Positions 17,427 to 41,883 of a stretch of 49,144 bases of DNA are shown here, in pieces. The position numbers were made by a program, and so were the translations under genes. The first letter of the stretch is position 1. Each line of letters opens with the position of its first letter. A model generated the notes under the pieces. The model saw only the letters and a list, made by a program, of their open reading frames with translations. It was not told the origin of the DNA and ran no database searches. The stretch is from Lachnospiraceae bacterium (GTDB lineage Bacteria; Bacillota; Clostridia; Lachnospirales; Lachnospiraceae): positions 1 through 49,144 of the forward strand of contig JAJPWX010000094.1 in NCBI GenBank assembly GCA_021205755.1, written 5' to 3'.

Positions 17427-18146
17427 ATGAAGGTTTACAGCGTCACAGACATTGGCAGGAGGCGAGCTTCCAATCAGGACTTTATCTATGCCTCAGACCA
17501 GCCGGTCGGCAATCTTCCCAACCTGATGATTGTCGCGGATGGGATGGGAGGACATAATGCGGGTGATCTGGCTTCCCGCTACACGGTAGAGTCTATGATT
17601 GAGTATCTGGGGCAGGCGCAGGAAAAACGGCCGATCCCACTGCTTTCGGAGGCGATCCATTTTGCAAACGACCGGGTCATTGAGAAAGCGTCGACAGATA
17701 AGGCATTGGAAGGAATGGGGACGACTGTGGTGGCCGCAGTGGTCAAGGATGGCTATCTATATGTGGCCAATGTCGGTGACAGCAGGCTGTATTTGATGGA
17801 TCAGGAGATTTCGCAGATTACCAGAGACCATTCGCTGGTGGAAGAGATGGTGCGGATGGGAGAACTGCAGCGCAAGGACGCGCGGTCTCATCCGGATAAA
17901 AATGTCATTACCCGGGCGATTGGGGTGAAATCGCCTGTGCGGGTTGATTTTTTTGATGTAAAGCTGGAACCGGGCGATCATATTCTGCTCTGCTCAGATG
18001 GCCTTACCAATATGGTAGAGGACGGGGAGATTCTGCAGATTGTTAAAAAATACCATTCACCAAAGGAGGCGGCGCAGCATCTGGTGAATGAAGCGAACAA
18101 AAACGGGGGAAAAGATAATATCTCTGTGGTTCTCGCTGAGGTTTAA
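17427..18146 (+). CDS. PP2C-type Ser/Thr protein phosphatase (Stp/PrpC)
   Basis: A protein of 239 residues. The metal-binding motifs are ADGMGGHNAGD (near 37), VGDSRLYL (near 116) and CSDGLTNMV (near 192), the usual PP2C set. It reverses phosphorylation by the kinase encoded 11 bases downstream. Such phosphatase/kinase pairs control cell-wall synthesis and translation in Firmicutes. The ribosome binding site AAAGGAC is upstream of ATG 17427. Confidence 0.94.
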   Translation: MKVYSVTDIGRRRASNQDFIYASDQPVGNLPNLMIVADGMGGHNAGDLASRYTVESMIEYLGQAQEKRPIPLLSEAIHFANDRVIEKASTDKALEGMGTTVVAAVVKDGYLYVANVGDSRLYLMDQEISQITRDHSLVEEMVRMGELQRKDARSHPDKNVITRAIGVKSPVRVDFFDVKLEPGDHILLCSDGLTNMVEDGEILQIVKKYHSPKEAAQHLVNEANKNGGKDNISVVLAEV

Positions 18147-18157
18147 GGGGAGAAGAT

Positions 18158-20437
18158 ATGTTAAGTGCAGGAGTGTTTATTCAGAACAGGTATGAGATCA
18201 TGTCCCGGATTGGTTCCGGCGGTATGGCCGATGTTTATAAGGCAAAGGATCATAAGCTGAACCGTTTTGTGGCTGTTAAGGTGCTGAAAAATGAGTTTCG
18301 GGACGACAAGATTCTTGTCTCTAAATTTCGGGCAGAAGCGCAGGCGGCTGCGGGTCTGGCGCATGGCAATATTGTCAATATTTATGATGTCGGGGAAGAG
18401 GCCGGGATCAACTATATTGTGATGGAGCTGGTGGAAGGCATTACTCTGAAAGAGTATATTGCAAGTAAGGGTCATCTGTCTGCAAGAGAGATGACCAGTA
18501 TTGCACTGCAGATTTCAGCCGGACTGGAAGCCGCGCACAACAATGGAATCATCCACCGGGACGTAAAACCGCAGAATATCATTATCTCTACAGACGGAAA
18601 AGTAAAGGTGGCGGATTTTGGAATTGCACGTGCGGCGAGCTCGAATACGATTACATCTACTATGATGGGCTCTGTGCATTATACATCGCCAGAGCAGGCG
18701 AGAGGCGGCTACAGTGATGAGAAGAGCGATATTTATTCGCTAGGCATTACGATGTACGAGATGCTGACCGGGCATGTCCCATTTGACGGAGATTCAGCGG
18801 TGGCCATTGCGCTGCACCATTTGCAGGATGAATTGCATGGCCCGAAGGAAGAGTTCCCGGAAATTCCGTACAGTACCAATCAGATTATATTGAAGTGTAC
18901 ACAGAAAAGCGCGGATCGCCGTTACCCGAATATGGCGGAGCTGATTCGCGATCTGCGGGAATCTCTGGTGAACCCGGAAGGCGATTTTGTGACCTGGGTG
19001 GTGCCGGATCGAACCTCACAGACGATTGTGATGTCGAAAGAGGAGATGGCGCAGATTAAGGCGGAGCAGCGCATGCCGTCCTATGATGAGACCCTGAATG
19101 TGGGCGCGGCGGCAAACATGCACGCGCCGGAGACCGGGTCGATACAGAACCGGGCCTATCAGCCTGGCAGTTATTATCAGAAAAGCCAGTATCAGGATGT
19201 CTCGCCAATGGATGGCGCTTATGATGGCACGCGCTGGAATGCGGGGTACCGGACGGACGCAGGGGATGAAGCCGGTTATTATGGTTCTTTCGACGGTGTC
19301 TACAGCGGAACGGGCGATTATGATTTAGAGGACAATGATCAGGAAGCCGGCTATGAGCTTGATGAGACATTTGAACCCTCCCGGACGCGCAGGAAAAATG
19401 AGGAGGATACAGACAGTGATCTGAATCCGAAGCTGGAGAAAGCGGTGACACTGGGCGGCATTATCATTGCAGTGATTGTCGGAATTGTATTCTTGGTTTT
19501 GCTTGCAAAAGCGTTTGGACTGATGAATTTTTCCGGCAGCAAAAAAACGGATTCGGATGGAAACGACATTGTGATAGAGACTTCTTCGGAATCGGAGACG
19601 GAGGAGCAGACAGAATCGGAGACGGAGTCTGAGACAGAATCGGAGACTTCGGCAGAATTTGTCCTGGATAACCTCAGCAATATGGAGCTCACACAGGCGC
19701 AGGCGCTTCTGATCACAAAAGGCCTGAAATACACGGTGGATCAGACGCAGTATAGTGACACTGTAGCAAGTGGTTATATTATATCGACAGATCCTGAATA
19801 CGGGGATTTGGTAAGCACAGGGGACACGATTACACTTTATGTCAGCCAGGGGCCGGAAGAGACAGAAGAGTCAGAGGAGACGGTCACAGAATATAAGACT
19901 TTGTGGAATCTGACCGGTTATACGGTAGAGCGGGCAGAGGAAGCACTGGAGATGCTGGGACTGACGGCCGCTTACGCTTACGAGGCCAGCGATACCATTA
20001 GTGCGGGCATGGTGACGCGCACGAGCGCGGAGGATACGGATAATCAGGTACCGAAGGGGAGTACGGTGACCCTTTATATCAGTACCGGTCCAGACACATC
20101 ATCCGACTCGTCGGATGATGATAATATTACGATCGAGGACAGCAGCAGCACGACCTCTTCTTCGGATTCGACAGCCAGCGGTACCTGGATGTGCAATGCA
20201 TCTTTGACTGCTCCATCCGGATACACCGGGCAGCCAGTGCGGATTACGCTTTATCAGAACGGAACAGAGACGACTGTTTTTGAGGGAACGACGACGTTTC
20301 CCTATACGCTCCAGGTAGAAGGCGCGAGCGGTGTATCTACGGGCATTGCGTATGTCTACCTGCTTGATGAGGATACTGGAGAGGTTATCAGCAAGATTGA
20401 GTATTCCGGGATTACTTTCTCGGAGGTTAGCTCGTAA
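18158..20437 (+). CDS. prkC: PASTA-domain Ser/Thr kinase PrkC (Stk)
   Basis: A protein of 759 residues. The cytoplasmic kinase domain has the Gly loop IGSGGMADVY, Lys41, HRD 133-135 and DFGIA. It is followed by a juxtamembrane stretch rich in Y/G/D, one transmembrane helix (about 430-455) and an acidic SESETE-type linker. Two extracellular PASTA repeats (about 500-568 and 578-645) follow. A serine-rich spacer leads to a last domain of about 90 residues with beta-sheet-like sequence, not a standard third PASTA. It senses muropeptides or lipid II and phosphorylates wall and translation factors. It pairs with the upstream phosphatase, and the next gene, rsgA, is a known substrate in relatives. 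Confidence 0.95.
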   Translation: MLSAGVFIQNRYEIMSRIGSGGMADVYKAKDHKLNRFVAVKVLKNEFRDDKILVSKFRAEAQAAAGLAHGNIVNIYDVGEEAGINYIVMELVEGITLKEYIASKGHLSAREMTSIALQISAGLEAAHNNGIIHRDVKPQNIIISTDGKVKVADFGIARAASSNTITSTMMGSVHYTSPEQARGGYSDEKSDIYSLGITMYEMLTGHVPFDGDSAVAIALHHLQDELHGPKEEFPEIPYSTNQIILKCTQKSADRRYPNMAELIRDLRESLVNPEGDFVTWVVPDRTSQTIVMSKEEMAQIKAEQRMPSYDETLNVGAAANMHAPETGSIQNRAYQPGSYYQKSQYQDVSPMDGAYDGTRWNAGYRTDAGDEAGYYGSFDGVYSGTGDYDLEDNDQEAGYELDETFEPSRTRRKNEEDTDSDLNPKLEKAVTLGGIIIAVIVGIVFLVLLAKAFGLMNFSGSKKTDSDGNDIVIETSSESETEEQTESETESETESETSAEFVLDNLSNMELTQAQALLITKGLKYTVDQTQYSDTVASGYIISTDPEYGDLVSTGDTITLYVSQGPEETEESEETVTEYKTLWNLTGYTVERAEEALEMLGLTAAYAYEASDTISAGMVTRTSAEDTDNQVPKGSTVTLYISTGPDTSSDSSDDDNITIEDSSSTTSSSDSTASGTWMCNASLTAPSGYTGQPVRITLYQNGTETTVFEGTTTFPYTLQVEGASGVSTGIAYVYLLDEDTGEVISKIEYSGITFSEVSS

Positions 20438-25155: not shown

Positions 25156-26865
25156 ATGGGAGAACAGGAGAATAATCCGCAGGAGCGGCGCACGAAGCGA
25201 CGAAAGAATGAGCTGGTTATGAAATGTCTGATATCGGTGCTTGTGCTGGCTCTTGTGGTGATGGGGGCAACGCTGGCCAAAGAGGTGGTTATTCCCGAAG
25301 TGGTGAAGCTGACATCTTCAGAAGAGCAGTCACAGAGCAGTGCAAACACTGCCGAGACAGGAAGCCTGACAGATGATTCCGGTATCGTCTCAGATAGTGA
25401 AGCAGCGGGAACCGTTTTGGAGGAGACTGGGGATGAGGATACTTCAGAGGCCATCGAGACGGCTTCTGCGCAGTCTGAAGCCTCGGACGCGGACGACGGT
25501 GCGTTTACAGTTGCTGAAGAGGCGGAGATTGAAGAAGTATTGATGGAAGCCGAAAATCTGGCCGCTATGTATGATTACGACAGTGCGATTGCCTGCGTGC
25601 AGGCGTCAGAGTATTATGAGGCGAGCGAGACGCTGCAGCAGGCAGCTTCCAGTTATGAAAAGACGAAAGCAAACTGTGTTTCGTGGTCGCCCGAAGAGGT
25701 CACGCATATCTTTTTCCATACCATTATCTGGGATGCTTCCAAAGCATTTGACGGAGATCTGTATGCGGAAGGGTACAATCAGTACATGGTGACGATGGAC
25801 GAATTTGCCGCGATCATGGAGACCATGTATGAGGAAGGCTATGTCATGGTCAGCATGCATGATATGTGCGAGGTCAATGAGGATGGCACGGTGACACGCA
25901 AAGAAATCTTGTTACCGGAAGGAAAAATTCCTTTTGTGCTTTCACAGGATGATGTGAATTACTACCATTACATGGATGGAGACGGATTTGCCTCACGGCT
26001 GGTTCTCGATGAGAATGGCGATGTGAAGGCAGAGTATATTGAGGATGACGGCACGGTCTCTGTTGGTGATTACGATCTGATTCCGTGGATTGATACGTTT
26101 GTGGATTCCCATCCGGATTTCGCGTATCATGGACACAAAGGAACGATTGCGCTGACCGGTTATGAGGGTGTGCTCGGCTACCGGACGGATGAAGTTTACC
26201 TGACGCGTGATGAGGACCGGCTGACGATCTGGCAGAAAGCATACCTGGAAGAGAACCCGGATTTTGATGAAGAGGCATGGCAGGCGGAGGTGGATGCGGC
26301 TACGGCGGTTGCCGACGCGCTGAAAGCCGACGGATGGGAATTTGCGAGCCACACCTGGGGTCATATCGATCCGATGGCGAAAGGTCTGGATGGAACGATG
26401 ACGGACACGGAGCGGTGGAAGAGCAATGTCGAGACCATTGTTGGAGAAACGGATATTATTATCTTTGCGTTCGGCGCAGATATCAGTGACTGGACTGAAT
26501 ATTCGGAGGACAATGAGTATTATATCTATCTGAAAGAGCAGGGATACAATATCTTCTGCTGTGTAGATTCGACGCAGTACTGGGTACAGTTTAACGGCAC
26601 GTCCATGCGTATGGGCCGGAGAAACATTGACGGGTACCGAATGTACTATAATGCCGATTTGCTGGCCGATCTCTTTGATGTAAGTGCGGTGTGGGATGCG
26701 CTGCGGCCGGATACAGTGGCAGAGCTCTCCGAAGCGGCCGGGACGATGAGTTCGGAATACACAGCGTCTGGTTCTTCGGATGAGGACAGTGCGGAAGGCA
26801 CTTCCGACGAGGAAAGCGCAGCCGGGGAGGACAGCTCGGCCGCAGAAGAAGACACTTCAGAGTAA
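25156..26865 (+). CDS. membrane-anchored polysaccharide deacetylase-like protein
   Basis: A protein of 569 residues. A basic N-terminus is followed by one transmembrane helix (about 22-42), then an acidic linker to about 125. A NodB/CE4-like catalytic region follows. The D265-D266 pair in SQDDVNYY corresponds to the family DD. H399 and H403 in SHTWGH form the H-x3-H metal site. VFAFGAD-type strands follow. A large insertion lies between these motifs. The C-terminal 50 residues are a Ser/Glu/Asp tail. It likely deacetylates peptidoglycan or the locally made glycan. The ribosome binding site AAGGAGGGG is strong. Confidence 0.75.
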   Translation: MGEQENNPQERRTKRRKNELVMKCLISVLVLALVVMGATLAKEVVIPEVVKLTSSEEQSQSSANTAETGSLTDDSGIVSDSEAAGTVLEETGDEDTSEAIETASAQSEASDADDGAFTVAEEAEIEEVLMEAENLAAMYDYDSAIACVQASEYYEASETLQQAASSYEKTKANCVSWSPEEVTHIFFHTIIWDASKAFDGDLYAEGYNQYMVTMDEFAAIMETMYEEGYVMVSMHDMCEVNEDGTVTRKEILLPEGKIPFVLSQDDVNYYHYMDGDGFASRLVLDENGDVKAEYIEDDGTVSVGDYDLIPWIDTFVDSHPDFAYHGHKGTIALTGYEGVLGYRTDEVYLTRDEDRLTIWQKAYLEENPDFDEEAWQAEVDAATAVADALKADGWEFASHTWGHIDPMAKGLDGTMTDTERWKSNVETIVGETDIIIFAFGADISDWTEYSEDNEYYIYLKEQGYNIFCCVDSTQYWVQFNGTSMRMGRRNIDGYRMYYNADLLADLFDVSAVWDALRPDTVAELSEAAGTMSSEYTASGSSDEDSAEGTSDEESAAGEDSSAAEEDTSE

Positions 26866-26932: not shown

Positions 26933-28015
26933 ATGAGAACATACCTTGTAACAGGAGGAGCCGGATTCATCGGTTCCAATTACATTCACTACATGTTTCG
27001 CAAATATGGGGATGAGATCCGCATCATCAATGTGGATAAGCTGACCTATGCGGGGAATCTTGAAAATCTGCGTGACGTGGAGGACCGGGATAATTATACC
27101 TTTATCCGCGCCGATATCTGTGACACCGAGGCGATTAACCGGATTTTTGCGGAGAATGACATTGACCGCGTCGTCCATTTCGCGGCTGAGAGCCATGTGG
27201 ATCGCAGCATTCGTGACCCGGAGGTTTTTGTGAAGACGAATGTGTTGGGGACGCTGGTCATGCTGAATGCGGCGAAAGCGGCCTGGGAGCTTCCGGATGG
27301 CTCTTTTAAAGAGGGGAAAAAGTTTCTTCATGTTTCAACGGATGAGGTTTATGGTTCTCTGGAAAAAGAGGGGGAATATTTTTATGAGACGACACCTTAT
27401 GCGCCGCATAGCCCCTATTCCGCAAGCAAGGCATCTTCGGATATGCTGGTAAAGGCGTATATGGATACCTATCGTTTCCCAGCGAATATTACAAACTGCA
27501 GCAACAACTATGGTCCGTATCAATTCCCGGAAAAGCTGATTCCGCTGATTATCAATAATGCGCTGCAGGGCAAGCCGCTTCCGGTATACGGCGATGGCAA
27601 AAACGTCCGTGACTGGCTCTATGTGGAAGACCACGCAAAGGGCATTGATATGGTACAGGAAAAGGGCCGCCTGTTCGAGACCTATAACATTGGCGGGCAT
27701 AATGAGCGGCAGAATATCCAGATCATTCACATCATTCTGGATACGCTGCAGGAGATGCTTCCGGATGATGACCCGCGCAAGGCGCTTGTCAGTGAAAAGT
27801 TAATCACCTATGTGACTGACCGCAAAGGACATGACCGCCGCTACGCGATTGCTCCGGACAAGATTCGCGCCGAGGTAGGCTGGGAGCCGGAGACAAAGTT
27901 TGAGGATGGCATCCGCCTCACTATCCGCTGGTTCTTTGAGCACGAAGACTGGATGGCCAATGTCACCAGCGGCGATTATCAGAAATATTACGACGAAATG
28001 TACAAAGGAAGATAA
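26933..28015 (+). CDS. rfbB: dTDP-glucose 4,6-dehydratase
   Basis: A protein of 360 residues, an extended SDR enzyme making dTDP-4-keto-6-deoxyglucose for L-rhamnose. The NAD loop is VTGGAGFIGSNY. FAAESHVDRS and the catalytic triad T-DE-Y-x3-K (STDEVYG, YSASKASSD) are intact. GGHNERQN lies near the C-terminus. ATG 26933 follows TTGGAGG. rfbC is in the opposing operon 7 kb away. rfbA and rfbD are not in the window, so the pathway is completed elsewhere. Confidence 0.95.
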   Translation: MRTYLVTGGAGFIGSNYIHYMFRKYGDEIRIINVDKLTYAGNLENLRDVEDRDNYTFIRADICDTEAINRIFAENDIDRVVHFAAESHVDRSIRDPEVFVKTNVLGTLVMLNAAKAAWELPDGSFKEGKKFLHVSTDEVYGSLEKEGEYFYETTPYAPHSPYSASKASSDMLVKAYMDTYRFPANITNCSNNYGPYQFPEKLIPLIINNALQGKPLPVYGDGKNVRDWLYVEDHAKGIDMVQEKGRLFETYNIGGHNERQNIQIIHIILDTLQEMLPDDDPRKALVSEKLITYVTDRKGHDRRYAIAPDKIRAEVGWEPETKFEDGIRLTIRWFFEHEDWMANVTSGDYQKYYDEMYKGR

Positions 28016-28067: not shown

Positions 28068-30590
28068 TTATGTGGTTGTACCCGTCCTCTCTCCTTTCTG
28101 GCGGATGCCGCAGCTTCCGTCGAGAAGAGTCAGGTGCGGGCTATAATAGGGATCCCCTGCTTCCAGAAAGTCTTTCCAGCGGCTTTGGAAGCGGCGGATT
28201 TCTTTCTGAAACCGTGCCTGTTTTTCTGGTGTGTCTTCATACCCCCGCGATTTGGATTCGTAGTGATAGAGCTCCACATTGGGATCCATCACGATCAGAT
28301 AGCCCTTTTCGCGGATACGCAGACAGAGATCCACATCATTCAGTGCCACGACAAAGTCCTCATCAAAGCCATGGATTGCTTCAAAGACAGAACGTTTCAC
28401 CATGATACAGGCGGCAGTGACCGCACTGATGTCCTGCACCGCTTTCAGACGGCCCAGATAGCCGATATCTGCACGGCTGGTGAAAGGATGGACGTGTCCG
28501 GCAAAGCCGCCGATGCCAATCACCACGCCCGCATGCTGTACCTGGCCGTCCGCGTAGTAGAGCTTTGCGCCCACTGCAGCGGTATTTTCCCGCTGGCAGA
28601 AGCCGAGCATTTCCCGGATCCAGAAAGGAGAAATGACCTCAGTGTCATTGTTGAGGAATACCAGATATTCTCCGTTTGCGTGGCGGACGCCAAAATTATT
28701 AATGGCGGAATAATTAAAGCCGCCCTCCCAGGTCACGACACGGAAATTCTCATGTTCGCGCTTCATTTTCTCATAATACGCAAAGGTTTCCGGCTCTTCG
28801 CTGTTATTTTCCACGATCAGGACTTCATAATCGCAATAATCCGTTTTGGCAAAGATGGACTGTACACAGGCATCCAGAAGCTCCCGGTGGTCTTTGTTCG
28901 GAATGATGATGCTAACCAGGGGGAGTGGCGCTTTCACTTTCAGCCGCATCCGGTACATGATAAAAATATCGGTATATTCCACCTCAGCCTCATAGCCCAA
29001 CCGCGCGAAATGTTCGGTGAGAGCCAGCTTTCCGGCGTCAATCGCGTATTGCTTGCTGTCCTGGTTGCCGGCGGTAGAGCCGCTGTAAGCACGCCAGTGG
29101 TAGAGTACCTTCGGGATATGGCCGACGCGGTCAGTCTTTTCGATGCAGCGCAGGAAAAAATCGTGATCCTGCGCGCCGTCGCATTTTTTCCGAAGAAGCC
29201 CCACATCAAAAGCCAGGGAGGTGCGCACCATGGTCAGGTGGCAGATATAGTTGATGCTCCGCAGAAAATCCGGATTGAAGTCCGGCTTGAAGCGGGGGCT
29301 GCTAAAATGCTTTGATTTCTCGTCAATCAGATCTTCATCGGTGTAGATCAGATCCAGCGTGCGGTTTTCATTCAGACACCTGACCAGCTCATAGAGAGCA
29401 TTCGGCTCTAACAGGTCATCGTGATCTGAGAATACCAGAAATTCTCCTTTTGCCATGCGGATTGCTGCGTTGGTGTTTTCGGAAATGCCGTCATTCTTTT
29501 CAAGGCGCAGCAGCCGGATTCTCGAGTCCCGGGCATAGCGTTTCCGGATCAGCGCAGCAGGCTCTGGCTGTGTGCTTCCATCTGCCAGACAGACTTCAAA
29601 ATGGGAATAGGTCTGCGCGAGAATGGAATCCAGCAGCTCCCGCAGATAGCGCTCCGGTGTGTTGTAAAGTGGTATGACGATGCTGAGCAGGGGCTCATAG
29701 GGAAAGTGTTCTTTCCGCTGCTGACGCAGTTCCGAATGGCCAAGAGGATGCTGTTTGCGCCAGCTTTCGTAGGGAACATCGGCAAGTGTGCTTGCATTCC
29801 GCAGATGCGTAAGGAATCCCTTTGGCCCTTTGCGGCGGATTTCATCCCAGATGCGCCCGGGGCTGAACCGTGTGAGCAATAGCAGGCACCGTCCGGCGCT
29901 GGTTCCCATCCATGTGAGCCGCTGCGTAGAGAGCCGGATGGATTTATCTGTATAAGGGTTCTGCATCCGGATGAACAGGGCGGAGCCGTGGAACTCCTCC
30001 TCGGGCATTGTGAAAGAAAATCCCCAGGATCGCTCCTGATAAAAATCTGGATTCAGGTGCAGCGCGTCCACCAGATCAGGCCGGATGAAACGCTTCGGCT
30101 GTACTGGAAGTGGGGTTCCGGTTTCATCCGTGATCTGCGGAAAGCACTCCCCCGTTTTGTCTACAATCCAGCCGCGGATGGTAATGACGTGATCAATGCA
30201 TCCGCAGACATCCAGAAAATACTGGATGGAGGCGTCATAATACGCTTTCTTCAGTTTTTCCGCACTTCGTGCGCAGAGAACACGGCTTGTGCCGCCCACG
30301 CACAGTGTAACCGTCAGTTTCTGGTGCTCCTCGAAAAAACGTTCGATGTCTGGCACGGTGATTTGAAAGCCCAGTTCTGCCTGCATCGGGGCGTATTCTG
30401 GATGAAGACTGACAACGTCCGGACGCGGGAGCGAAAGGCATTCTGCCTCGATCGGTGCGCCGGATTCATCGAGTACCTGAAAAATGGCTGTTTCGCCAGG
30501 ACTTGTGACTTTCCATCCGCGCAGGATGAATGTGCCGCCAGGTTCCCATCCGAAGGTCTCCTGGTCGATCTTTATTTTCTGTATACTCAT
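28068..30590 (-). CDS. double-GT2 glycosyltransferase with N-terminal extension
   Basis: A protein of about 840 residues. The first 270 residues are an uncharacterised N-terminal region. The first GT-A domain starts LLSIVIPLYNTPERYL and has metal motif SDHDD. The second starts LVSIIIPNKDHRELL and has LNNDTEV and the acceptor-side motif ALNDVDLCLR. The ending LYHYESKSRG is shared with the plus-strand protein at 35958. Such tandem GT2 proteins usually build rhamnose-containing backbones. Possible starts are ATG 30590 (ATGA overlap with the upstream gene, chosen) and ATG 30608. It is the last gene of the minus-strand operon. Confidence 0.85.
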   Translation of the reverse strand: MSIQKIKIDQETFGWEPGGTFILRGWKVTSPGETAIFQVLDESGAPIEAECLSLPRPDVVSLHPEYAPMQAELGFQITVPDIERFFEEHQKLTVTLCVGGTSRVLCARSAEKLKKAYYDASIQYFLDVCGCIDHVITIRGWIVDKTGECFPQITDETGTPLPVQPKRFIRPDLVDALHLNPDFYQERSWGFSFTMPEEEFHGSALFIRMQNPYTDKSIRLSTQRLTWMGTSAGRCLLLLTRFSPGRIWDEIRRKGPKGFLTHLRNASTLADVPYESWRKQHPLGHSELRQQRKEHFPYEPLLSIVIPLYNTPERYLRELLDSILAQTYSHFEVCLADGSTQPEPAALIRKRYARDSRIRLLRLEKNDGISENTNAAIRMAKGEFLVFSDHDDLLEPNALYELVRCLNENRTLDLIYTDEDLIDEKSKHFSSPRFKPDFNPDFLRSINYICHLTMVRTSLAFDVGLLRKKCDGAQDHDFFLRCIEKTDRVGHIPKVLYHWRAYSGSTAGNQDSKQYAIDAGKLALTEHFARLGYEAEVEYTDIFIMYRMRLKVKAPLPLVSIIIPNKDHRELLDACVQSIFAKTDYCDYEVLIVENNSEEPETFAYYEKMKREHENFRVVTWEGGFNYSAINNFGVRHANGEYLVFLNNDTEVISPFWIREMLGFCQRENTAAVGAKLYYADGQVQHAGVVIGIGGFAGHVHPFTSRADIGYLGRLKAVQDISAVTAACIMVKRSVFEAIHGFDEDFVVALNDVDLCLRIREKGYLIVMDPNVELYHYESKSRGYEDTPEKQARFQKEIRRFQSRWKDFLEAGDPYYSPHLTLLDGSCGIRQKGERTGTTT

Positions 30591-31882
30591 GGTTTTGGTT
30601 TTCTCCATAACTGATCTTTCCATCGCACCAGGCGCGAAGCCTTTAATTCCTGATAATTCCTGGCCAGCCGGCTGACCTCGTTCAGCGGAGCCTGATCTGG
30701 GCAGTAGGATTCGAATGCAATGAGGAAGCTTTTGGCGTCCGCAGGAATCTCTGTGAGGAAGATATTCGGATCTTCCTCTGAAAAATAAATCCAGTCATCG
30801 ATCGCAGTACCTTCACGCAGGAGGAAAGAAGGCTGTTCCATCTGGGAATCAAAACGAAATTCACTCAGATGAACGATGGACGCATGGTATCCCGGATCAA
30901 TCCGCATCGCTTTGACCTGGGCCGGAAGGGGAATTTCCTGCCGCAGATACCAGTGCGAGTCTTTGTGCATGCGGTAAAGCACAGAATTATCTTCGCAAAA
31001 ACCGTCTCCGTAATCGAAATAAACCTGCAGCGCTTCCGACGCAAAATGATCCTCTATCAGGGAATAGCCGTCGCTGACCGCGGAATAGAGATTCCGGATG
31101 GGGACGTGTCCCTGAAGAATATATTTCTGAAAATGCGCTTCCATTGCCGCAAAAGCAGTTTTTTCCTCTTCGGTGATTCCCATCTGTCCCATAAAATCAA
31201 AGCGCCGGAATTCTTCCCCGCGGTTTGCATTGTCTGTAAAATGCAGAATAACCCGATAGAGAAGAAAATTTACGGGGATGGGAAAATCAAAGCTCCATTC
31301 ATAGTCAATGGCAATCCAGTGCCCTTTTGAGACCAGGATGTTTTCACAGAGCAGGTCGATATCCGTGCACGGTGCGCAATCCGTGCCAGACGGAAGCGAA
31401 ACATCTCCAAAAACCCGTCGGAATTCGTCACAGGGGGCAAACTTCGCTCCGGTGTGCAGCGAGCGGAGAAAGTGCAGGCAGTCCAGGAATTCCTTTGCAC
31501 ACGCATCCGTACCCTCTGTGTGCAGGGTGAAAAGCAGCTGCTCTTCCAGAGATTCTCCCTCAATGTATTCCAGTTCGACGCCATCCTCCAGCGGGATACA
31601 GCGGTTCCAGGAGAGCTTTGTACCGTCTGTCAGGGCCGAAAGAGACTGGTAATGGCGGTAAAGTGCCTGCAGATGCTCTTTGCCCTCCGGGTAAATCGGA
31701 GTCTTGCGGACACAGCGAAGAGGAATCTTCGCTTCCGGCATGGCTGCTGCATTGCTGCATTCTGGTTCATCTGACGTCTGACCAGAGGAACTACGTGAGA
31801 TTTCTTCCTCCAGAATATCCGTGCGGATCGAAAAAAGCGGGCTTCGTTCATTGGAATATTTTGTATAAATAATGGTTTTCAT
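30587..31882 (-). CDS. kinase-like protein of the polysaccharide operon (APH/WbdD-kinase-like fold)
   Basis: A protein of 431 residues. The sequence TDIDLLCENILV followed by WIAIDYEW gives a protein-kinase or aminoglycoside-kinase-type active site: catalytic D176, Asn181 and metal-binding D193. FLDCLHFLRSLH precedes it, as in small-molecule kinases. The last 170 residues form an unrecognised beta-rich region. It lies four bases into the methyltransferase gene (ATGA) and upstream of the double GT2. In E. coli O8/O9a the methyltransferase-kinase WbdD caps the glycan. Here the two activities would be separate proteins. The fold call rests on motifs alone and the capping role is inferred. Confidence 0.6.
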   Translation of the reverse strand: MKTIIYTKYSNERSPLFSIRTDILEEEISRSSSGQTSDEPECSNAAAMPEAKIPLRCVRKTPIYPEGKEHLQALYRHYQSLSALTDGTKLSWNRCIPLEDGVELEYIEGESLEEQLLFTLHTEGTDACAKEFLDCLHFLRSLHTGAKFAPCDEFRRVFGDVSLPSGTDCAPCTDIDLLCENILVSKGHWIAIDYEWSFDFPIPVNFLLYRVILHFTDNANRGEEFRRFDFMGQMGITEEEKTAFAAMEAHFQKYILQGHVPIRNLYSAVSDGYSLIEDHFASEALQVYFDYGDGFCEDNSVLYRMHKDSHWYLRQEIPLPAQVKAMRIDPGYHASIVHLSEFRFDSQMEQPSFLLREGTAIDDWIYFSEEDPNIFLTEIPADAKSFLIAFESYCPDQAPLNEVSRLARNYQELKASRLVRWKDQLWRKPKP

Positions 31883-32817
31883 AGCTGCCCCTCCGTTTCC
31901 AGAAAAACAAAAAAGGAATTGGAAAACTGCGGGAACAGTCCGTTCTCGATGAGACTGTCGAATACTTTTCCTTCATCAAACAGCAGAAGCCGGCGGCGGT
32001 CGTAATTGTTCAGGTTATTTTTTAAATCTCCCTTGCGCGGAAGATAGCGGTCGGAGTAGATGGAAAACGGGAATTTATAGTCCGGGTAAGGGTAGTAAAA
32101 CGTGGATTTGAAATTCCCGGCTTCCTCAAAAAGTGCTTCCAGCTCCAGCTTCGAGAAGGTGCGGACGCCGGACGCAGGTGTGCGGGAATAACCCTCCAGC
32201 CCTTCAAAGAGCCTGCCGACATGGTCTTCCGTGCAGCCTGCCCAGTATTTGAGACCCAGCCGGTTTTCGATGGCGATCAGAATTTTCCCGCCAGGGGCCA
32301 GATGGCGCGCGATGGCAGTGAGCATGCTGGCAAAGGGATTTTTCTCTTTAGTATAGAGGGCAGCGTACTCGAAAACGCCGATCAGCGTGATATAGTCGTA
32401 GGTTTCCGTGAGACGTTTTTCCACATCCTCGAACGCCCCTAGCAGGATGGTAATGTTGTCATAGTCGCGATGCCGCCAGGCATTGACAAGACTGCGCTGC
32501 CGGGAAAGCTCGATACAGGTGACGCTTCTGGCTTTTTGGGCGAGCGCGCCGGTGACAGCTCCGCAGCCAGAGCCAATCTCCAGGACAGTATCCTTTTTTG
32601 TGATGGGCACCCAGGAGAGAAGATTGTGGCGGATGTGAGAAAAATGGTACATGACAGGCCAGCTTTTTTTCTCTGCAATCACCGCATTGTAGTCTGCCTC
32701 ATTTTTGCAGCTTTTTGCAATGTCAAGCAGCTCGAGCTCGATGGCGCCGTCACTGTAGCGGTCTTCACCGGGGTAGCAGGTATCGTCAAGAATCACGCTG
32801 CCAATTTTTTCCTGCAT
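31879..32817 (-). CDS. SAM-dependent class I methyltransferase
   Basis: A protein of 312 residues. The SAM motif is VLEIGSGCGAVTG (about 78-90), motif II is VTCIELS, and APGGKILIAIENRLGLKYWAG is the motif IV/post-motif segment. The C-terminus contains YPYPDYKFP, typical of sugar or O-antigen methyltransferases. The start at 32815-32817 (minus) has GGAGG nine bases upstream. An ATG 11 codons earlier is weaker. It lies between the exporter ATPase and the kinase-like gene and overlaps the latter by four bases, which suggests coordinated action on the same glycan. Confidence 0.85.
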   Translation of the reverse strand: MQEKIGSVILDDTCYPGEDRYSDGAIELELLDIAKSCKNEADYNAVIAEKKSWPVMYHFSHIRHNLLSWVPITKKDTVLEIGSGCGAVTGALAQKARSVTCIELSRQRSLVNAWRHRDYDNITILLGAFEDVEKRLTETYDYITLIGVFEYAALYTKEKNPFASMLTAIARHLAPGGKILIAIENRLGLKYWAGCTEDHVGRLFEGLEGYSRTPASGVRTFSKLELEALFEEAGNFKSTFYYPYPDYKFPFSIYSDRYLPRKGDLKNNLNNYDRRRLLLFDEGKVFDSLIENGLFPQFSNSFFVFLETEGQL

Positions 32818-32911
32818 AATATCGATTCCTCCGAATTGTTTGTAAATCACCGGAGCCGCCCGAGAGGGGAGACAACTGGCGCCGGGGTGAGCCGGAAGTG
32901 AAAGAAACGTG

Positions 32912-34180
32912 TCATCTTTGAGCCTGCAAAGCAGTCGTGACAGTTACCTGTGAATTCATATCATAGAAACCAACGGTATCTTTGATGGAAATCACTGTAA
33001 TGTTGCAGGCGTCATAGAGCCGGTGAAAAACATGAAACTCACCGTCCATATAGCCGGTACAGCCGAAAGAGATCAGGTAGTTGCCGCCCTGTAGATTCAT
33101 CTCCTGGGTAAACGATACCTCAGCAATACTTCCGGCTTTGGCAGGGAGAGAAACCTTCTCATACATGGTGTTGGTACCGGTGAGTTCTGTCCCTTTCATA
33201 TCCTTGATCGTAAAAGCGGCAACCGGTTCCTGCAGATCCTCGTGGAAGAGAATGCGCATTTTGATGGTGCAGAGCTTTCCTTTTTCGACGGTATTGGTCA
33301 GCATGCCGCGGCCGTCCGTCACGGCAAAATCTATGATTTCGGCCTGTTTTTCTCCATATTCCAGCAGTTCGGGATTGACCTCAATGGACTGTTTCCAGGC
33401 TTTGGCATTCTGGTTCGCTTCGCCCTGCGGCGGCTCTCCTTCCTGGTGAACCAGGAGACGTTTGTAGAGATCCACCATGGCTTTCGGATTTCCCTCATCC
33501 AGCTTAGTCCCCTGGTTCAGTACGATCACGCGGTCACAGTATTTACTGATGCTGCTCAGATCATGACTGACAAAGAGGATGGTTTTCCCCTGCTTTTTGA
33601 ATTCTTCGAATTTATGGTAGCATTTGGCCTGAAAAAACACATCGCCGACTGAGAGCGCCTCGTCGACGATCAGGATTTCCGGGTCAATGTTGATGGCGAC
33701 GGCGAAAGCCAGACGCACAAACATCCCGCTGGAATAGGTCTTTACCGGCTGATTTACGAAGTCGCCAATGTCCGCGAAACGCAGAATTTCAGGGAGCCTC
33801 TGCTCGATTTCCTCATCTGTAAAGCCGAGCATGGAGCCGTTCAGGTAAACATTTTCAATGCCGGTGTATTCCATATTAAAGCCGGCTCCCAGCTCCAGAA
33901 GCGCGGAAATACGTCCATTCACGGTAACAGAGCCCTCTGTAGGGGTGAGGACGCCGGTGATGATTTTGAGAATGGTGGATTTCCCAGAGCCATTCACACC
34001 GATAATACCGACAGTCTCGCCTTCCTGCACAGTGAAACTCACCTGATCGAGCGCGCGGTGTTCCCGGTAGCGTTTTTTCCTGGTAAGCCCCAGCCCGTCT
34101 CTCAGGCGGTCAGATGGCTTGTTATATAGCTTATAGATTTTGCTGACCTGATCCACACGGATCGCAAACTTGTTATCCAA
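32912..34180 (-). CDS. polysaccharide ABC exporter ATPase with C-terminal carbohydrate-binding domain (Wzt-like)
   Basis: A protein of 422 residues. The NBD (1-240) has Walker A GVNGSGKST (61-69), signature YSSGMFVR (about 149-156) and Walker B ILIVDEA (D173, E174). The C-terminal 160 residues are a beta-sandwich-type Wzt_C region (EIIDFAVTDGRG ... NYLISFGCTGYMDGEF). In O-antigen exporters that domain recognises the capped chain end. The start is TTG 34180, supported by GAGAGGCGG upstream and by homology from the first residues. It pairs with the permease 24 bases upstream. Confidence 0.92.
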   Translation of the reverse strand: MDNKFAIRVDQVSKIYKLYNKPSDRLRDGLGLTRKKRYREHRALDQVSFTVQEGETVGIIGVNGSGKSTILKIITGVLTPTEGSVTVNGRISALLELGAGFNMEYTGIENVYLNGSMLGFTDEEIEQRLPEILRFADIGDFVNQPVKTYSSGMFVRLAFAVAINIDPEILIVDEALSVGDVFFQAKCYHKFEEFKKQGKTILFVSHDLSSISKYCDRVIVLNQGTKLDEGNPKAMVDLYKRLLVHQEGEPPQGEANQNAKAWKQSIEVNPELLEYGEKQAEIIDFAVTDGRGMLTNTVEKGKLCTIKMRILFHEDLQEPVAAFTIKDMKGTELTGTNTMYEKVSLPAKAGSIAEVSFTQEMNLQGGNYLISFGCTGYMDGEFHVFHRLYDACNITVISIKDTVGFYDMNSQVTVTTALQAQR

Positions 34181-34204: not shown

Positions 34205-35029
34205 TTACAGTACGTCTGCGAAATGCCCTTTCAGCCGGTTGAACACCCAGGTGCCGAGCGCGAAGCTTGCGGCCAGAAATACCCAGAAGTAGAGTGTCCA
34301 GAGCGGGTCTTCAAAAAACCAGCGCTTACTGATCAGGGCGTTCCGGTAGCCATGCACAACATAATAAACGGGATTCAGCTTTAAGATCTTAAGAGCCGTC
34401 GGCCCCCAGGAGTAGGAGCTGAGCATGCTTTCCTCCCACATGATCGGGGTCAGCCAGACGCCGACCTGCAGGACGATGGAGACAATCTGCGAGAGATCCC
34501 GGAAGAAAATGACCACAGAGCTGGTGATATACGCGAACGCCAGAATTAGAAGAAACAGGCAGAGTGCGTAGTAAATCAGTTCCAGATAATAAACCGACGG
34601 GAGGTAGCCGTAGCACCCGAATAAAATCATCACAAAAAGGATGAAAAAACAATGCACCACGGTCGCGGAGAGCAGCTTCACCATCGGCAGAATGTCGATA
34701 TCGAAGACTACTTTTTTCACCAAGTAGCTGTATTCGAGAAACGAATTGGTGGCGTTGGTAAGTCCTTCCTGGAAAAAAAGCCAGGGGATGATTCCCACCA
34801 CCAGATACAGTACAAAAGGGGTACCCCCTTCTGCGGAGCTTCCTCCCCGCATGGCTACACCAAACACAAAATAGTAGACCAGAATCGTCACAATGGGCTG
34901 GATGAAAGCCCAGACCGTACCGAAATAAGACCCCGCAAAGCGGTTGCGGAGGTCATTTTTGGCCATTTTGCTCAGTAAACGTCTGTTTTTATATAGATCC
35001 TTTGGCAGCTTAAAATGTTCTTTCTTCAT
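34205..35029 (-). CDS. polysaccharide ABC exporter permease (Wzm-like, ABC-2 type)
   Basis: A protein of 274 residues with about six transmembrane helices and an amphipathic start (DLRNRFAGSYFGTVWAFIQPIV). These are features of the Wzm/TagG family, which moves undecaprenyl-linked glycans to the outside. No clear ribosome binding site precedes the ATG (35027-35029). A TATAAT sequence lies directly before the start codon, which could be a -10 box giving a nearly leaderless message, or chance. Otherwise it would be translated from the rfbC transcript 36 bases upstream. Confidence 0.92.
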   Translation of the reverse strand: MKKEHFKLPKDLYKNRRLLSKMAKNDLRNRFAGSYFGTVWAFIQPIVTILVYYFVFGVAMRGGSSAEGGTPFVLYLVVGIIPWLFFQEGLTNATNSFLEYSYLVKKVVFDIDILPMVKLLSATVVHCFFILFVMILFGCYGYLPSVYYLELIYYALCLFLLILAFAYITSSVVIFFRDLSQIVSIVLQVGVWLTPIMWEESMLSSYSWGPTALKILKLNPVYYVVHGYRNALISKRWFFEDPLWTLYFWVFLAASFALGTWVFNRLKGHFADVL

Positions 35030-35065: not shown

Positions 35066-35629
35066 TCATAAACCGCGGCTAGCCGTGTACTCTGAGAAGG
35101 AGCCCCAGTTCTGGTCTTTTTCAGAGAGCGTCAGCTCCATGCCTTCCGGGATGGGCCACTTCACACCGATCTCGGGATCGTTCCAGGCGATGCCGCCCTC
35201 ATCGTTGGGATGATAAAAGTCCGTGCATTTATAGGTGAATTCCGCCTGGTCAGAGAGAACCACGAAGCCGTGCGCGAAATTCTTCGGGATAAAGAACTGC
35301 TTTTTGTTTTCTGCGGAAAGCAGCACGCCGAACCATTTCCCGTAGGTCGCAGAACCCGGACGAAGATCTACCGCCACATCAAACACTTCGCCTGCCACCA
35401 CGCGCACCAGCTTGTCCTGCGGATGGTGAATCTGAAAATGCAGGCCGCGCAATACGCCCTTACGGGAGGAAGACTGGTTATCCTGCACAAAGGTCAGGTC
35501 AATGCCCGCTGCCGCAAAGTCGTTGTAATTATAGGTTTCCATAAAATAGCCCCGCGCATCCCCGAACACAGTCGGAGTAATCACCTTCAGGCCTTCGATT
35601 TCACATGTTTCTACTGTAATCTTTCCCAT
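35066..35629 (-). CDS. rfbC: dTDP-4-dehydrorhamnose 3,5-epimerase
   Basis: A protein of 187 residues, a cupin-fold enzyme. DARGYFMETYN, LRGLHFQ (catalytic His), KLVRVVAGEVFDVAVDLR (with catalytic Asp) and FIPKNFAHGFVVLSD are all present. It makes dTDP-4-keto-L-rhamnose. It is the first gene of the minus-strand glycan operon, and AGGAGA precedes the ATG. The inverted repeat copy C lies in its leader. Confidence 0.95.
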   Translation of the reverse strand: MGKITVETCEIEGLKVITPTVFGDARGYFMETYNYNDFAAAGIDLTFVQDNQSSSRKGVLRGLHFQIHHPQDKLVRVVAGEVFDVAVDLRPGSATYGKWFGVLLSAENKKQFFIPKNFAHGFVVLSDQAEFTYKCTDFYHPNDEGGIAWNDPEIGVKWPIPEGMELTLSEKDQNWGSFSEYTASRGL

Positions 35630-38898: not shown

Positions 38899-40296
38899 TT
38901 GAAGGAAAACGAAAAAAATTTTAACCGGCTTCAGGTGATACTGGACGCGCTTGTGATGATCTTCTCGTATATGACGGGATGGTATGCCATGGTTTCCTCT
39001 TCACGGCGCGGTGGTATGGGCGTTTTGCCTCGGGAATTCTATTTTATGGCACTTGTCGCGATCGTGCCATTTTTTCTGATACTCTATTACGCATTTAATC
39101 TGTATGTGCCAAACCGCCTGGAGGGTAGGCGCCGGGAAGGCAGCAATATTATCAAAGCAAATGCAGTCGGCGGCCTGGTGGCTATGGCTGTTTTGTATCT
39201 GCTCCGGCAGATGGACGTCTCTCGTATGCTGCTTTCGGTTTTCCTGGTGCTGAATGTGTCATTGACTATTCTGGAGCGCAATCTGGTACGGATGGTGCTG
39301 ATGCGCGCCCGTTCGCTGGGGCTGAATCAGAGATACATTCTGCTTGTAGGCTACAGCCGCGCGGCGGAAGAATATATTGACCGTATTGTGCAGAATCCGC
39401 AGTGGGGTTATAAGGTGCTGGGCATCCTGAGCGATGATACAGAGGCCGGTACGAGGTATCGGGGGGTGGAGGTGCTGGGACCGATCGGCAGCCTGCACAC
39501 TCTTTTGACTTATCATACGCCGGATGAGATTGCGATTACTGTAGGTCTGAATGAGTATTACAAGCTGGAGCGGATTGTGGCAATGTGTGAGAAATCCGGG
39601 GTTCACACAAAATTTATCCCGGATTACAGCAATATTATTCCGACGAAGCCTTATACGGAGGATATCCTGGGGCTGCCGGTGATCAATATCCGGCATGTCC
39701 CGCTTTCGAATACCTTTAACGCGACGATGAAGCGGATTGTGGACGTTGTCGGCTCTGTTTTCTGCATTGTCTTGTTTTCTCCGGTTATGCTCCTGACGGC
39801 AGTGGCGATCAAAACTACTTCAAAAGGCCCCATTATTTTTTCGCAGGAGAGAGTCGGCCTGCATAATAAGCCATTTCGGATGTACAAATTCCGTTCTATG
39901 GAGCAGCAGACAGAGGCGGAGGAGCAGCGGGGATGGACGACGCGGAATGACCCCCGTGTGACCACGGTGGGGAAATTTATCCGGCGCACCAGCATTGATG
40001 AGATGCCGCAGTTTTTTAATGTACTGAAGGGAGACATGTCTCTGGTGGGACCAAGGCCGGAGCGCCCTCAGTTTGTGGAAAAGTTTCGCGAGGAAATCCC
40101 GCGGTATATGGTCAAGCATCAGGTGCGGCCCGGCATGACCGGATGGGCGCAGGTGCATGGCTACCGGGGAAACACCTCTATCCGAAAAAGAATTGATTAT
40201 GACCTTTACTATATCGAGAACTGGACAATGAGCCTGGATGTAAAAATACTGGTGATGACATTATTTAAGGGATTTGTAAATAAGAACGCGTATTAA
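38899..40296 (+). CDS. initiating undecaprenyl-phosphate sugar phosphotransferase (WbaP/WcaJ-type)
   Basis: A protein of 465 residues. About four N-terminal transmembrane helices (to residue 125) are followed by a CoA-binding-like domain (YILLVGYSRAAEEY). A further helix (about 277-298) precedes the catalytic bacterial sugar transferase domain, which contains QERVGLHNKPFRMYKFRSM and VGPRPERPQF. It transfers a sugar-1-phosphate to undecaprenyl phosphate and so starts the repeat unit. The start is TTG 38899 with GGGGAGG ten bases upstream. The short gap before it holds two small hairpins. Confidence 0.93.
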   Translation: MKENEKNFNRLQVILDALVMIFSYMTGWYAMVSSSRRGGMGVLPREFYFMALVAIVPFFLILYYAFNLYVPNRLEGRRREGSNIIKANAVGGLVAMAVLYLLRQMDVSRMLLSVFLVLNVSLTILERNLVRMVLMRARSLGLNQRYILLVGYSRAAEEYIDRIVQNPQWGYKVLGILSDDTEAGTRYRGVEVLGPIGSLHTLLTYHTPDEIAITVGLNEYYKLERIVAMCEKSGVHTKFIPDYSNIIPTKPYTEDILGLPVINIRHVPLSNTFNATMKRIVDVVGSVFCIVLFSPVMLLTAVAIKTTSKGPIIFSQERVGLHNKPFRMYKFRSMEQQTEAEEQRGWTTRNDPRVTTVGKFIRRTSIDEMPQFFNVLKGDMSLVGPRPERPQFVEKFREEIPRYMVKHQVRPGMTGWAQVHGYRGNTSIRKRIDYDLYYIENWTMSLDVKILVMTLFKGFVNKNAY

Positions 40297-40410: not shown

Positions 40411-41883
40411 ATGAAGAAGAGCAAAAGCAGGAATCAGGAGAGTGATCTGCAGAATAACTATCAGGGCGGTCAGGGATATGAAGACTGGTCGGGAAATGCA
40501 GGGGATACTTATTCGGATGAAGGACAGTATTTTGACGATCAGGACGTTTATTCGAATGAGAACCAGTATTATGGCGATCCGTATTACGGTCAGCCGGGAA
40601 GCAGTGCGAACAGCGGTCAATATTATGGCGATCCGTATTACGGTCAGCCGGGCAGTAATGCGAACAGCGGTCAATATTATGGCGACCAGTATTACGGTCA
40701 GACGAACGGCGGCCAGTATTACGGCCAGACGGAGGATACACAGCAGGGTCCCAGCTATTATGGACCGCAGGGAAATTATTATAACCAGCAGGATAACTTC
40801 CAGCGAAATTATGGACAGGGCTTTTATGGGGCGCCTGCGCCGGAAAATAGCGGAGAACGCAAGGGAAAGATGAAAAAGCAAAAGAAACAAAAGAAGAAAA
40901 AAAGAAAAATATTCTGGGTGCTTGGAATTCTGGTTCTGCTGATTGCCGCGGTTGGTCTTGCGGGATTTGGCGTGCTCGGCCAGCTGGATCGGGAAAAGCT
41001 GACGGATATTCTGGTTAACAGCGGAGTGACTTCCTCCGGCTACCGGAATATTGCAATTTTTGGCGTGGATTCCCGTGAAGGGGAGCTGGAGAGCGGTACC
41101 AGGAGTGATACGATTATTATCGCAAGTATCAATAAAAGAACCGGGGATATTAAACTGGTGTCTGTTTACCGTGATACTTATCTGGACAATACGGATGGCT
41201 CTTATCGAAAAGCGACGGAGGCGTATGCCTATGGAGGCGCGAGCCTGGCCGTCAATATGCTTAACAAGAATCTGGATCTCGATATTGAAGATTATGTGAC
41301 GGTGGACTTTGAGGCGGTGATCGAGGTAGTGGACGAGCTTGGCGGCATTGAGATTACACTGGATGATGAGGAGGTCTACTGGCTGAATGCCTATCTGGTG
41401 GAGACTTCTGAGGTGACCGGCCGCTCTTACACAGAAGTGACCTCATCGGGAACACAGACACTGACCGGCATTCAGGCGATGGCGTACTGCCGGATCCGCT
41501 ATACAACCGGCTGGGATTATAAGAGAACCGAACGTCAGAGAACGGTACTGACCCAGATTCTGGAAAAAGCGCAGCAGCAGGGTGTGACCGGATTGCTGGC
41601 GATTGTCAATAACATGATTCCATATATATCGACCAGTCTGGATAACGCAGAGCTGCTTTCTCTGGCGACAGGAATCTCAAAATATGAGATTGTAGATTCG
41701 CAGGGATTCCCATTTACGAGCGCGACAGCAAATCTGTCGGCCGGGGATTGTGTGGTGCCGCAGACGCTGGCATCGAATGTGAGCGAGCTGCACGAGCTGC
41801 TGTTTGGTACGACAGACTATACGCCGTCTTCGACTGTGCAGGAGATCAGCAGTTATATCGTGTCAGCAACAGGTATTTCGTAG
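40411..41883 (+). CDS. LCP (LytR-CpsA-Psr) family glycan ligase with repeat-rich N-terminus
   Basis: A protein of 490 residues. The cytoplasmic N-terminal region of about 150 residues is rich in Y, G, Q and N and contains 18-residue repeats, ending in a lysine cluster. One transmembrane helix (about 168-190) follows. The extracellular LCP domain contains NIAIFGVDSREG, RSDTIIIASIN, SVYRDTYLD, ILDELGGIEI-like VVDELGGIEI and RIRYTTGWDYKRTERQR. LCP proteins attach undecaprenyl-linked polymers to peptidoglycan, which fits the surrounding glycan locus. ATG 40411 follows AAAGGGGAG. Confidence 0.93.
   Translation: MKKSKSRNQESDLQNNYQGGQGYEDWSGNAGDTYSDEGQYFDDQDVYSNENQYYGDPYYGQPGSSANSGQYYGDPYYGQPGSNANSGQYYGDQYYGQTNGGQYYGQTEDTQQGPSYYGPQGNYYNQQDNFQRNYGQGFYGAPAPENSGERKGKMKKQKKQKKKKRKIFWVLGILVLLIAAVGLAGFGVLGQLDREKLTDILVNSGVTSSGYRNIAIFGVDSREGELESGTRSDTIIIASINKRTGDIKLVSVYRDTYLDNTDGSYRKATEAYAYGGASLAVNMLNKNLDLDIEDYVTVDFEAVIEVVDELGGIEITLDDEEVYWLNAYLVETSEVTGRSYTEVTSSGTQTLTGIQAMAYCRIRYTTGWDYKRTERQRTVLTQILEKAQQQGVTGLLAIVNNMIPYISTSLDNAELLSLATGISKYEIVDSQGFPFTSATANLSAGDCVVPQTLASNVSELHELLFGTTDYTPSSTVQEISSYIVSATGIS
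40567..40735 (+). repeat. 54-bp in-frame tandem repeats in the LCP gene
   Basis: A unit encoding YYGDPYYGQPGSxANSGQ is present twice (from 40567 and 40621) and is followed by two shorter degenerate copies. The period is 54 bases, so copy-number change keeps the frame. Confidence 0.85.

Follow-up and report, generated by a model that had tools for sequence, protein, structure and literature searches.

The window analysed here is a stretch of 49,144 nucleotides from a Lachnospiraceae bacterium (assembly GCA_021205755.1, contig JAJPWX010000094.1), and the system in question is a pair of adjoining genes for a methyltransferase and a 431-residue protein with kinase active-site residues, beside an ATP-binding cassette (ABC) exporter. 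By open reading frame (ORF) calls and Pfam searches, a run on the minus strand consists, in order, of rfbC, Wzm, Wzt, the methyltransferase, the 431-residue protein and a GT2-GT2 glycosyltransferase. The first gene (35066..35629) encodes dTDP-4-dehydrorhamnose 3,5-epimerase (RmlC/RfbC; PF00908, E 5.1e-75). It is followed by the Wzm-type ABC permease (34205..35029; PF01061 ABC2_membrane, E 2.4e-12; NCBIfam galactan permease model, below cut-off) and the Wzt-type ABC ATPase (32912..34180; PF00005, E 5.5e-24), in which residues 274-408 match Wzt_C (PF14524, E 3e-41, profile positions 4-143 of 143 covered). The S-adenosylmethionine (SAM) methyltransferase (31879..32850) matches PF13489 (E 2.1e-10), PF08242 and other methyltransferase families; its GTG start (32850) is probably too early, and Met12 (about 32817) corresponds to the start of fused relatives. 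The methyltransferase ORF overlaps that of the 431-residue protein (30587..31882) by 4 bases (31879-31882), and the latter overlaps the next glycosyltransferase gene by 37 bases if the first ATG is used. This glycosyltransferase (28068..30623, 851 residues) carries PF00535 twice and an extra N-terminal region and is the presumed polymerase partner. The original prediction had given the order permease, Wzt, methyltransferase and kinase-like protein and a sugar-binding C-terminal domain on the exporter ATPase; the ORFs and Wzt_C were found as described, with the permease just outside the range that it had covered.

For the 431-residue protein, Pfam gave no match at E 0.1, PDB sequences gave none at E 10, and NCBIfam models were matched only far below their cut-offs. 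In the structure model, residues 1-267 (31082..31882, minus strand) are predicted to adopt the fold of aminoglycoside phosphotransferase (APH) kinases. They are followed by a beta-sandwich (residues 271-400, 30683..31072; AF2 pLDDT 91.4) and a short C-terminal helix and tail (30587..30682; model helix 400-427, at most a short heptad-like stretch). The best VIA-align rows were APHs, and Foldseek ranked eukaryotic kinases as well; WbdD was not among the 50 structural rows listed, which excludes nothing. The original prediction was to fall if the fold proved unrelated to kinases or if the Wzt lacked the Wzt_C beta-sandwich; the predicted fold is that of a kinase, and Wzt_C is present.

The kinase residues that it had named, D176, N181 and D193, do not vary among the 53 homologues that were aligned, out of 106 found. 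Together with K60 they are kept in all 81 loci of a second set, made up of the window and 80 loci from a genome collection (the best-scoring of 464 relatives) and biased to the window's close relatives. This set was picked by patterns around D193 and near the N-terminus, so that D193 was partly selected for, and K60, D176 and N181 lie outside these patterns.

Methyltransferase Pfam domains were found on the same chain in 11 of the 106 homologues. With a fused relative as query, 5159 proteins were matched at E <= 1e-3 among 7994 scored candidates, and 116 of the 120 matches listed (query included) span at least 90% of the query. The 81 loci were sorted by arrangement into separate methyltransferase, kinase and glycosyltransferase genes (34 loci), a methyltransferase-kinase fusion with a separate glycosyltransferase (23), a separate methyltransferase with a kinase-glycosyltransferase fusion (13), a single chain with all modules (3) and a kinase with a degenerate methyltransferase (8). 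Wzt_C lies directly upstream of the pair in 73 of the 81; four further loci are cut by a contig end, and four have no Wzt alongside. These data bear on a reading in which the substrate of the APH-fold protein is a small molecule, a protein or a nucleotide-sugar precursor, and its place in the operon is incidental. The fold alone does not name a substrate, but other genomes have the protein fused to methyltransferase and GT2 modules, and its position behind Wzt is conserved; both speak against an unrelated activity, to which we give the least credence of the readings considered.

In the eight degenerate loci (L021, L032, L046, L047, L049, L052, L057 and L066) the methyltransferase part is fused. 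The equivalents of window residues E91, G97 and Y162 are absent from all eight and G95 is retained in one, while the kinase residues are kept. Wzt_C lies upstream in six, and the other two are at contig ends. Since the SAM motif was lost while the kinase residues stayed, the kinase is argued to be the indispensable activity, and the sequences suggest phosphate-only ends in these eight loci. Several of them also have a second Wzm/Wzt pair downstream, on which no Wzt_C was detected.

A fused relative was also compared by tblastn with 72,556 plasmids. Two records were matched, one with a Citrobacter and one with a Pseudomonas gene, and both genes immediately follow those for Wzm and Wzt. In its 1457 residues the Pseudomonas protein (P0225) comprises methyltransferase, kinase, sandwich, linker and GT2-GT2 modules and aligns in this order to three window genes (methyltransferase, 431-residue protein and glycosyltransferase); many Pseudomonas proteins share its length and make-up. 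The window methyltransferase matches P0225 at 36% over 292 residues, and the window glycosyltransferase matches its GT2-GT2 half at 39% over 633 alignment columns. The window Wzt and the Citrobacter Wzt (P0226) show 37% identity over 449 alignment columns. In profile comparisons between the window family and P0225, E values of 1.6e-10 (kinase), 7.8e-59 (methyltransferase) and 3.6e-10 (sandwich) were obtained, and none of four mismatched pairs exceeded a probability of 0.38%. In the alignment of the kinase parts, D176, N181 and D193 fall on D443, N448 and D461 of P0225. When P0225 itself was used in tblastn against the plasmids, 482 records were matched; of the 25 listed, one was P0225 and 24 were matched at the GT2-GT2 end only, and the glycosyltransferase similarity is therefore the least specific of the three. 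A distant DNA search for E. coli relatives of the Citrobacter gene returned none. The idea of a split methyltransferase-kinase is strongly supported by the fused relatives and by co-linearity with a Gram-negative single-chain protein.

P0225 also provides a link to ORF6-O7 of Klebsiella pneumoniae O7, described as a chain terminator composed of methyltransferase, APH-like kinase, carbohydrate-binding module (CBM), coiled coil and GT2-GT2 (PMC11231755). According to that paper, ORF6-O7 adds first a phosphate and then a methyl group to the rhamnose at the end of its glycan, D441 is catalytic, and D441A stops export in vivo. The published SAM-site residues of ORF6-O7 (Y28, Y66, G91, G93, E112 and Y158) have identical numbers in P0225, through which Y32, Y68, G93, G95, E114 and Y162 of the window methyltransferase align with them. 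All 19 sequences in the alignment share the Y, Y, G, G and Y, and have either E or D at E112. These correspondences argue that the window family is the ORF6-O7 family, by an indirect link that would hardly arise by chance; the beta-sandwich, as modelled, would be the putative sugar-binding counterpart of the ORF6-O7 CBM. Relatives of ORF6-O7 are reported from alpha- and gammaproteobacteria, cyanobacteria and Methanoculleus, and the word stem 'Firmicut' is absent from the main text of the paper (PMC11231755).

For the survey of co-occurrence with Wzt_C that the original prediction had proposed, 97 genomes of the order were used (a spread sample including the window's genome, with at most 28 candidates scored per genome). 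In these, 59 Wzt loci were found, 22 of which have Wzt_C. Of the 22, 12 have the pair no more than about 6 kb away, compared with 2 of the 37 others (Fisher p 3.4e-5, shared ancestry ignored). For some loci adjacency was judged on the retrieved sequence, for the others on coordinates. Within the group of 12, G068 has the pair ahead of Wzm, and G023 has another glycosyltransferase gene in between. Every one of the 13 best Wzt_C matches (at least 134 bits) comes from a genome that also has a kinase match; 12 of the 13 are adjacent, compared with none of the nine weaker matches. Across 65 loci, kinase distances correlate slightly better with those of Wzt_C (r 0.727) than with those of the ATPase domain (r 0.677), with a difference of 0.010 to 0.098 (2.5-97.5 percentiles of 300 random 70% subsamples). 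Methyltransferase distances gave no such difference (-0.042 to 0.065).

As a control, the two ORFs next after Wzt were taken from loci without the pair. Where Wzt_C was present (10 loci), 6 of 20 proteins match Methyltransf_11 or Methyltransf_24, and the same 20 include one CDP-glycerol transferase and one radical SAM protein. Where Wzt_C was absent, 57 proteins came from 32 of 35 loci (the other three lacked an ORF further downstream within the stretch). At least 3 of the 57 match the commonest methyltransferase models, a lower bound with 25 of 68 families listed. Other methyltransferases directly after Wzt were seen in four kinase-less Wzt_C loci (L084:7610-8770, L087:6100-7251, L089:4740-7931 and L090:4831-7281), two of them fused to glycosyltransferases as described for WsaE of Geobacillus stearothermophilus.

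The six control methyltransferases would suit a methyl-only cap in the manner of WsaE or E. coli O8 WbdD, made by methylation of a sugar hydroxyl, with the kinase-like domain as a substrate-binding pseudokinase; a Gram-positive methyl cap is indeed known (PMC2943079). Such a cap is nevertheless very improbable for the window. None of the 81 loci departs from the kinase catalytic set, and the loss of the SAM motif with retention of the kinase residues in 8 of them is the reverse of what a methyl-only cap predicts. In ORF6-O7, moreover, the corresponding domain is reported to be catalytic through D441 (PMC11231755).

We conclude that the window set is probably a Gram-positive, split member of the methylphosphate-terminator kind. 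A number of observations weigh against this conclusion. No glycan structure or enzyme assay was found for any Firmicute member; the family identity with ORF6-O7 rests on P0225 and published residue numbers; and the structural search gave no confident PDB fold match for the beta-sandwich. The genes are separate, and the window protein lacks the long coiled-coil ruler that would link terminator to polymerase. The Fisher test treats the genomes as independent although they are related, and 10 of the 22 Wzt_C loci are without the pair. In G035 the pair is on one contig and the Wzt_C locus on another, in G014 the pair is on a short contig without Wzt, and in G070 only the sandwich part was matched. 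No Wzt stands beside the pair in L013, L022, L033 and L070; in L070 the ABC ATPases follow oligopeptide-type permeases and were counted as no Wzt. In L092 and L094 the pair is near a Wzt without Wzt_C, and the link between cap and Wzt_C is therefore common, not universal. The kinase-like proteins of these two loci (L092:6935-8053 and L094:6564-7931) have long repetitive tails, no detected sandwich and an adjoining methyltransferase gene; L092 also has an RgpF gene alongside and a nucleotide-sugar epimerase-like gene between Wzt and the methyltransferase.

Several of these points would suit tailoring instead of termination, with kinase and methyltransferase placing (methyl)phosphate on internal or side-chain sugars and having no role in stopping or export. 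L092 and L094, the four loci without Wzt and the absence of a ruler coil from the window protein are all compatible with it, as is the report that the terminal pyruvate of K. pneumoniae O1 is not required for export (PMC11231755). Against tailoring stand the linkage of the pair with Wzt_C in the 81 loci and the 97-genome survey, and the closer agreement of kinase distances with Wzt_C. The module set and order are also those of ORF6-O7, whose chain-end methylphosphate is described as required for export (PMC11231755). On balance we regard tailoring as unlikely.

The missing ruler affects how the window set is classified, as a long coiled coil is said to mark terminators of the ORF6-O7 kind (PMC11231755). 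For selected proteins, tails were given a crude heptad score and compared with 200 shuffles. The fraction of shuffles was at most 5% for P0006 (0), P0008 (0), L067 (0.005), L092 (0.02), L029 (0.035) and L016 (0.045). It was above 5% for L070 (0.06), the P0225 linker (0.065), L005 (0.09), L094 (0.115), L048 (0.12), L065 (0.125-0.135), L069 (0.145), L071 (0.34-0.35) and L042 (0.655). The score of the window tail was reached by 0.02 of shuffles, but is low (0.35). P0006 and P0008, homologues at 53% identity, have heptad-rich C-terminal tails of about 120-140 residues that are absent from the window protein; expansion of repeats may account for differences in tail length. The heptad-rich tails of P0006, P0008 and L092 indicate that the coiled-coil module varies within the family. 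Because of this variation and because the window protein has no long ruler, the window set was filed as a variant and not as a full member of the ORF6-O7 type. The proposal that the cap sets chain length fared poorly: with only 42 residues after the beta-sandwich, it is not supported for the window locus.

Further genes of the locus lie on the plus strand, opposite to the exporter run. An initiating sugar-phosphate transferase (Bac_transf, 38899..40296; PF02397, E 1.2e-73) is followed by a LytR-CpsA-Psr (LCP) protein (40411..41883; PF03816, E 1e-35), the candidate wall ligase that had been noted earlier. An NAD-dependent nucleotide-sugar dehydratase (26933..28015, plus strand; PF16363, PF01370) is one that we take to be probably dTDP-glucose 4,6-dehydratase (RmlB). 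Since RmlC and this probable RmlB are in the window and an RmlD-like gene (E 1e-89) is elsewhere in the same genome, dTDP-rhamnose is likely made by the host. Adjoining the rfbB-like gene, a 569-residue protein (25156-26865) had no Pfam match at 1e-5. A PP2C phosphatase followed by a PASTA-domain Ser/Thr protein kinase (17427-20437) lies about 7 kb from the glycan locus.

Computation supplies the fold, the catalytic residues, the homology and co-linearity with P0225, the conserved gene order and the association with Wzt_C. For the chemistry of the cap, its sugar and its position, and for export licensing and wall attachment, we infer the following sequence of events. Methyltransferase, kinase/beta-sandwich protein and GT2-GT2 would together form a single machine of the ORF6-O7 type, split into modules, that both polymerises and terminates the chain. 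On a lipid carrier, initiating transferase and glycosyltransferases would build a glycan that probably contains rhamnose. The APH-fold kinase would then phosphorylate its non-reducing end, and methylation of the end phosphate by the methyltransferase would stop growth. Wzt_C would recognise the capped end, so that Wzm/Wzt would export capped chains only, and the LCP enzyme would attach the glycan to the wall.

If this is correct, chain-end capping as an export checkpoint, known from Gram-negative O antigens, also governs common Firmicute surface glycans. Blautia and its kin live in the gut. We see an even chance that many Lachnospiraceae-type bacteria, gut Blautia included, make wall or surface glycans with (methyl)phosphate ends that gate ABC export, the first kinase-dependent Gram-positive caps as far as found. 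Their modules would be freely fused or split, with the ruler coil dropped in some lineages and the methyltransferase site lost in others, leaving a phosphate-only cap. Possibly thousands of proteins named 'methyltransferase' or 'hypothetical protein' would gain a testable role. The split genes allow phosphorylation, methylation and polymerisation to be removed singly, and the lineages without the SAM site raise the question whether phosphate alone suffices. More speculatively, a charge at the end of the chain could influence recognition by phages and by the immune system.

Of the known systems, aminoglycoside phosphotransferases of the APH(3')-Ia type share the predicted fold of residues 1-267 at about 11% identity in the structural alignment; their gene neighbourhood is different, and no resistance role is suggested. 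WbdD of E. coli O9a, the prototype named in the original prediction, combines methyltransferase and kinase and has as its neighbour a Wzt whose C-terminal domain recognises carbohydrate; the logic proposed for it is cap, stop, export (PMC3482155). As a family it was rejected, no WbdD entry being listed in searches of PDB sequences with either window protein or with family profiles (E 10, 1 and 0.1), and ORF6-O7 is the better prototype. WsaE, compared by description only, acts on an S-layer rhamnan with a 2-O-methyl cap proposed as export signal (PMC2943079). It resembles the window system in its Gram-positive host, rhamnose glycan (probable for the window), upstream Wzm/Wzt genes and combination of an N-terminal methyltransferase with two glycosyltransferases, fused in WsaE and encoded by separate genes in the window. 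It differs in that it is described without a kinase, its cap is a methyl ether and not methylphosphate, and the glycan is attached to S-layer protein (PMC2943079). In view of WsaE, capping in Gram-positives is not new, and the novelty claimed for a methyl cap falls away. No kinase-type chain terminator in a Gram-positive was found described in the open-licence full-text literature, and the word 'methyltransferase' does not occur in PMC6804347. The window system, with its predicted glycan and cap, departs from ORF6-O7 in its three separate genes, the lack of a long coiled coil, the Gram-positive host and the nearby LCP gene. It agrees with ORF6-O7, whose rhamnose-containing O7 glycan leaves the cell through an ABC transporter (PMC11231755), in module order (methyltransferase, APH-like kinase, Ig-like/beta-sandwich, GT2-GT2) and, through P0225, in the catalytic aspartate (D176, aligned with D443 of P0225) and the SAM-site residues.

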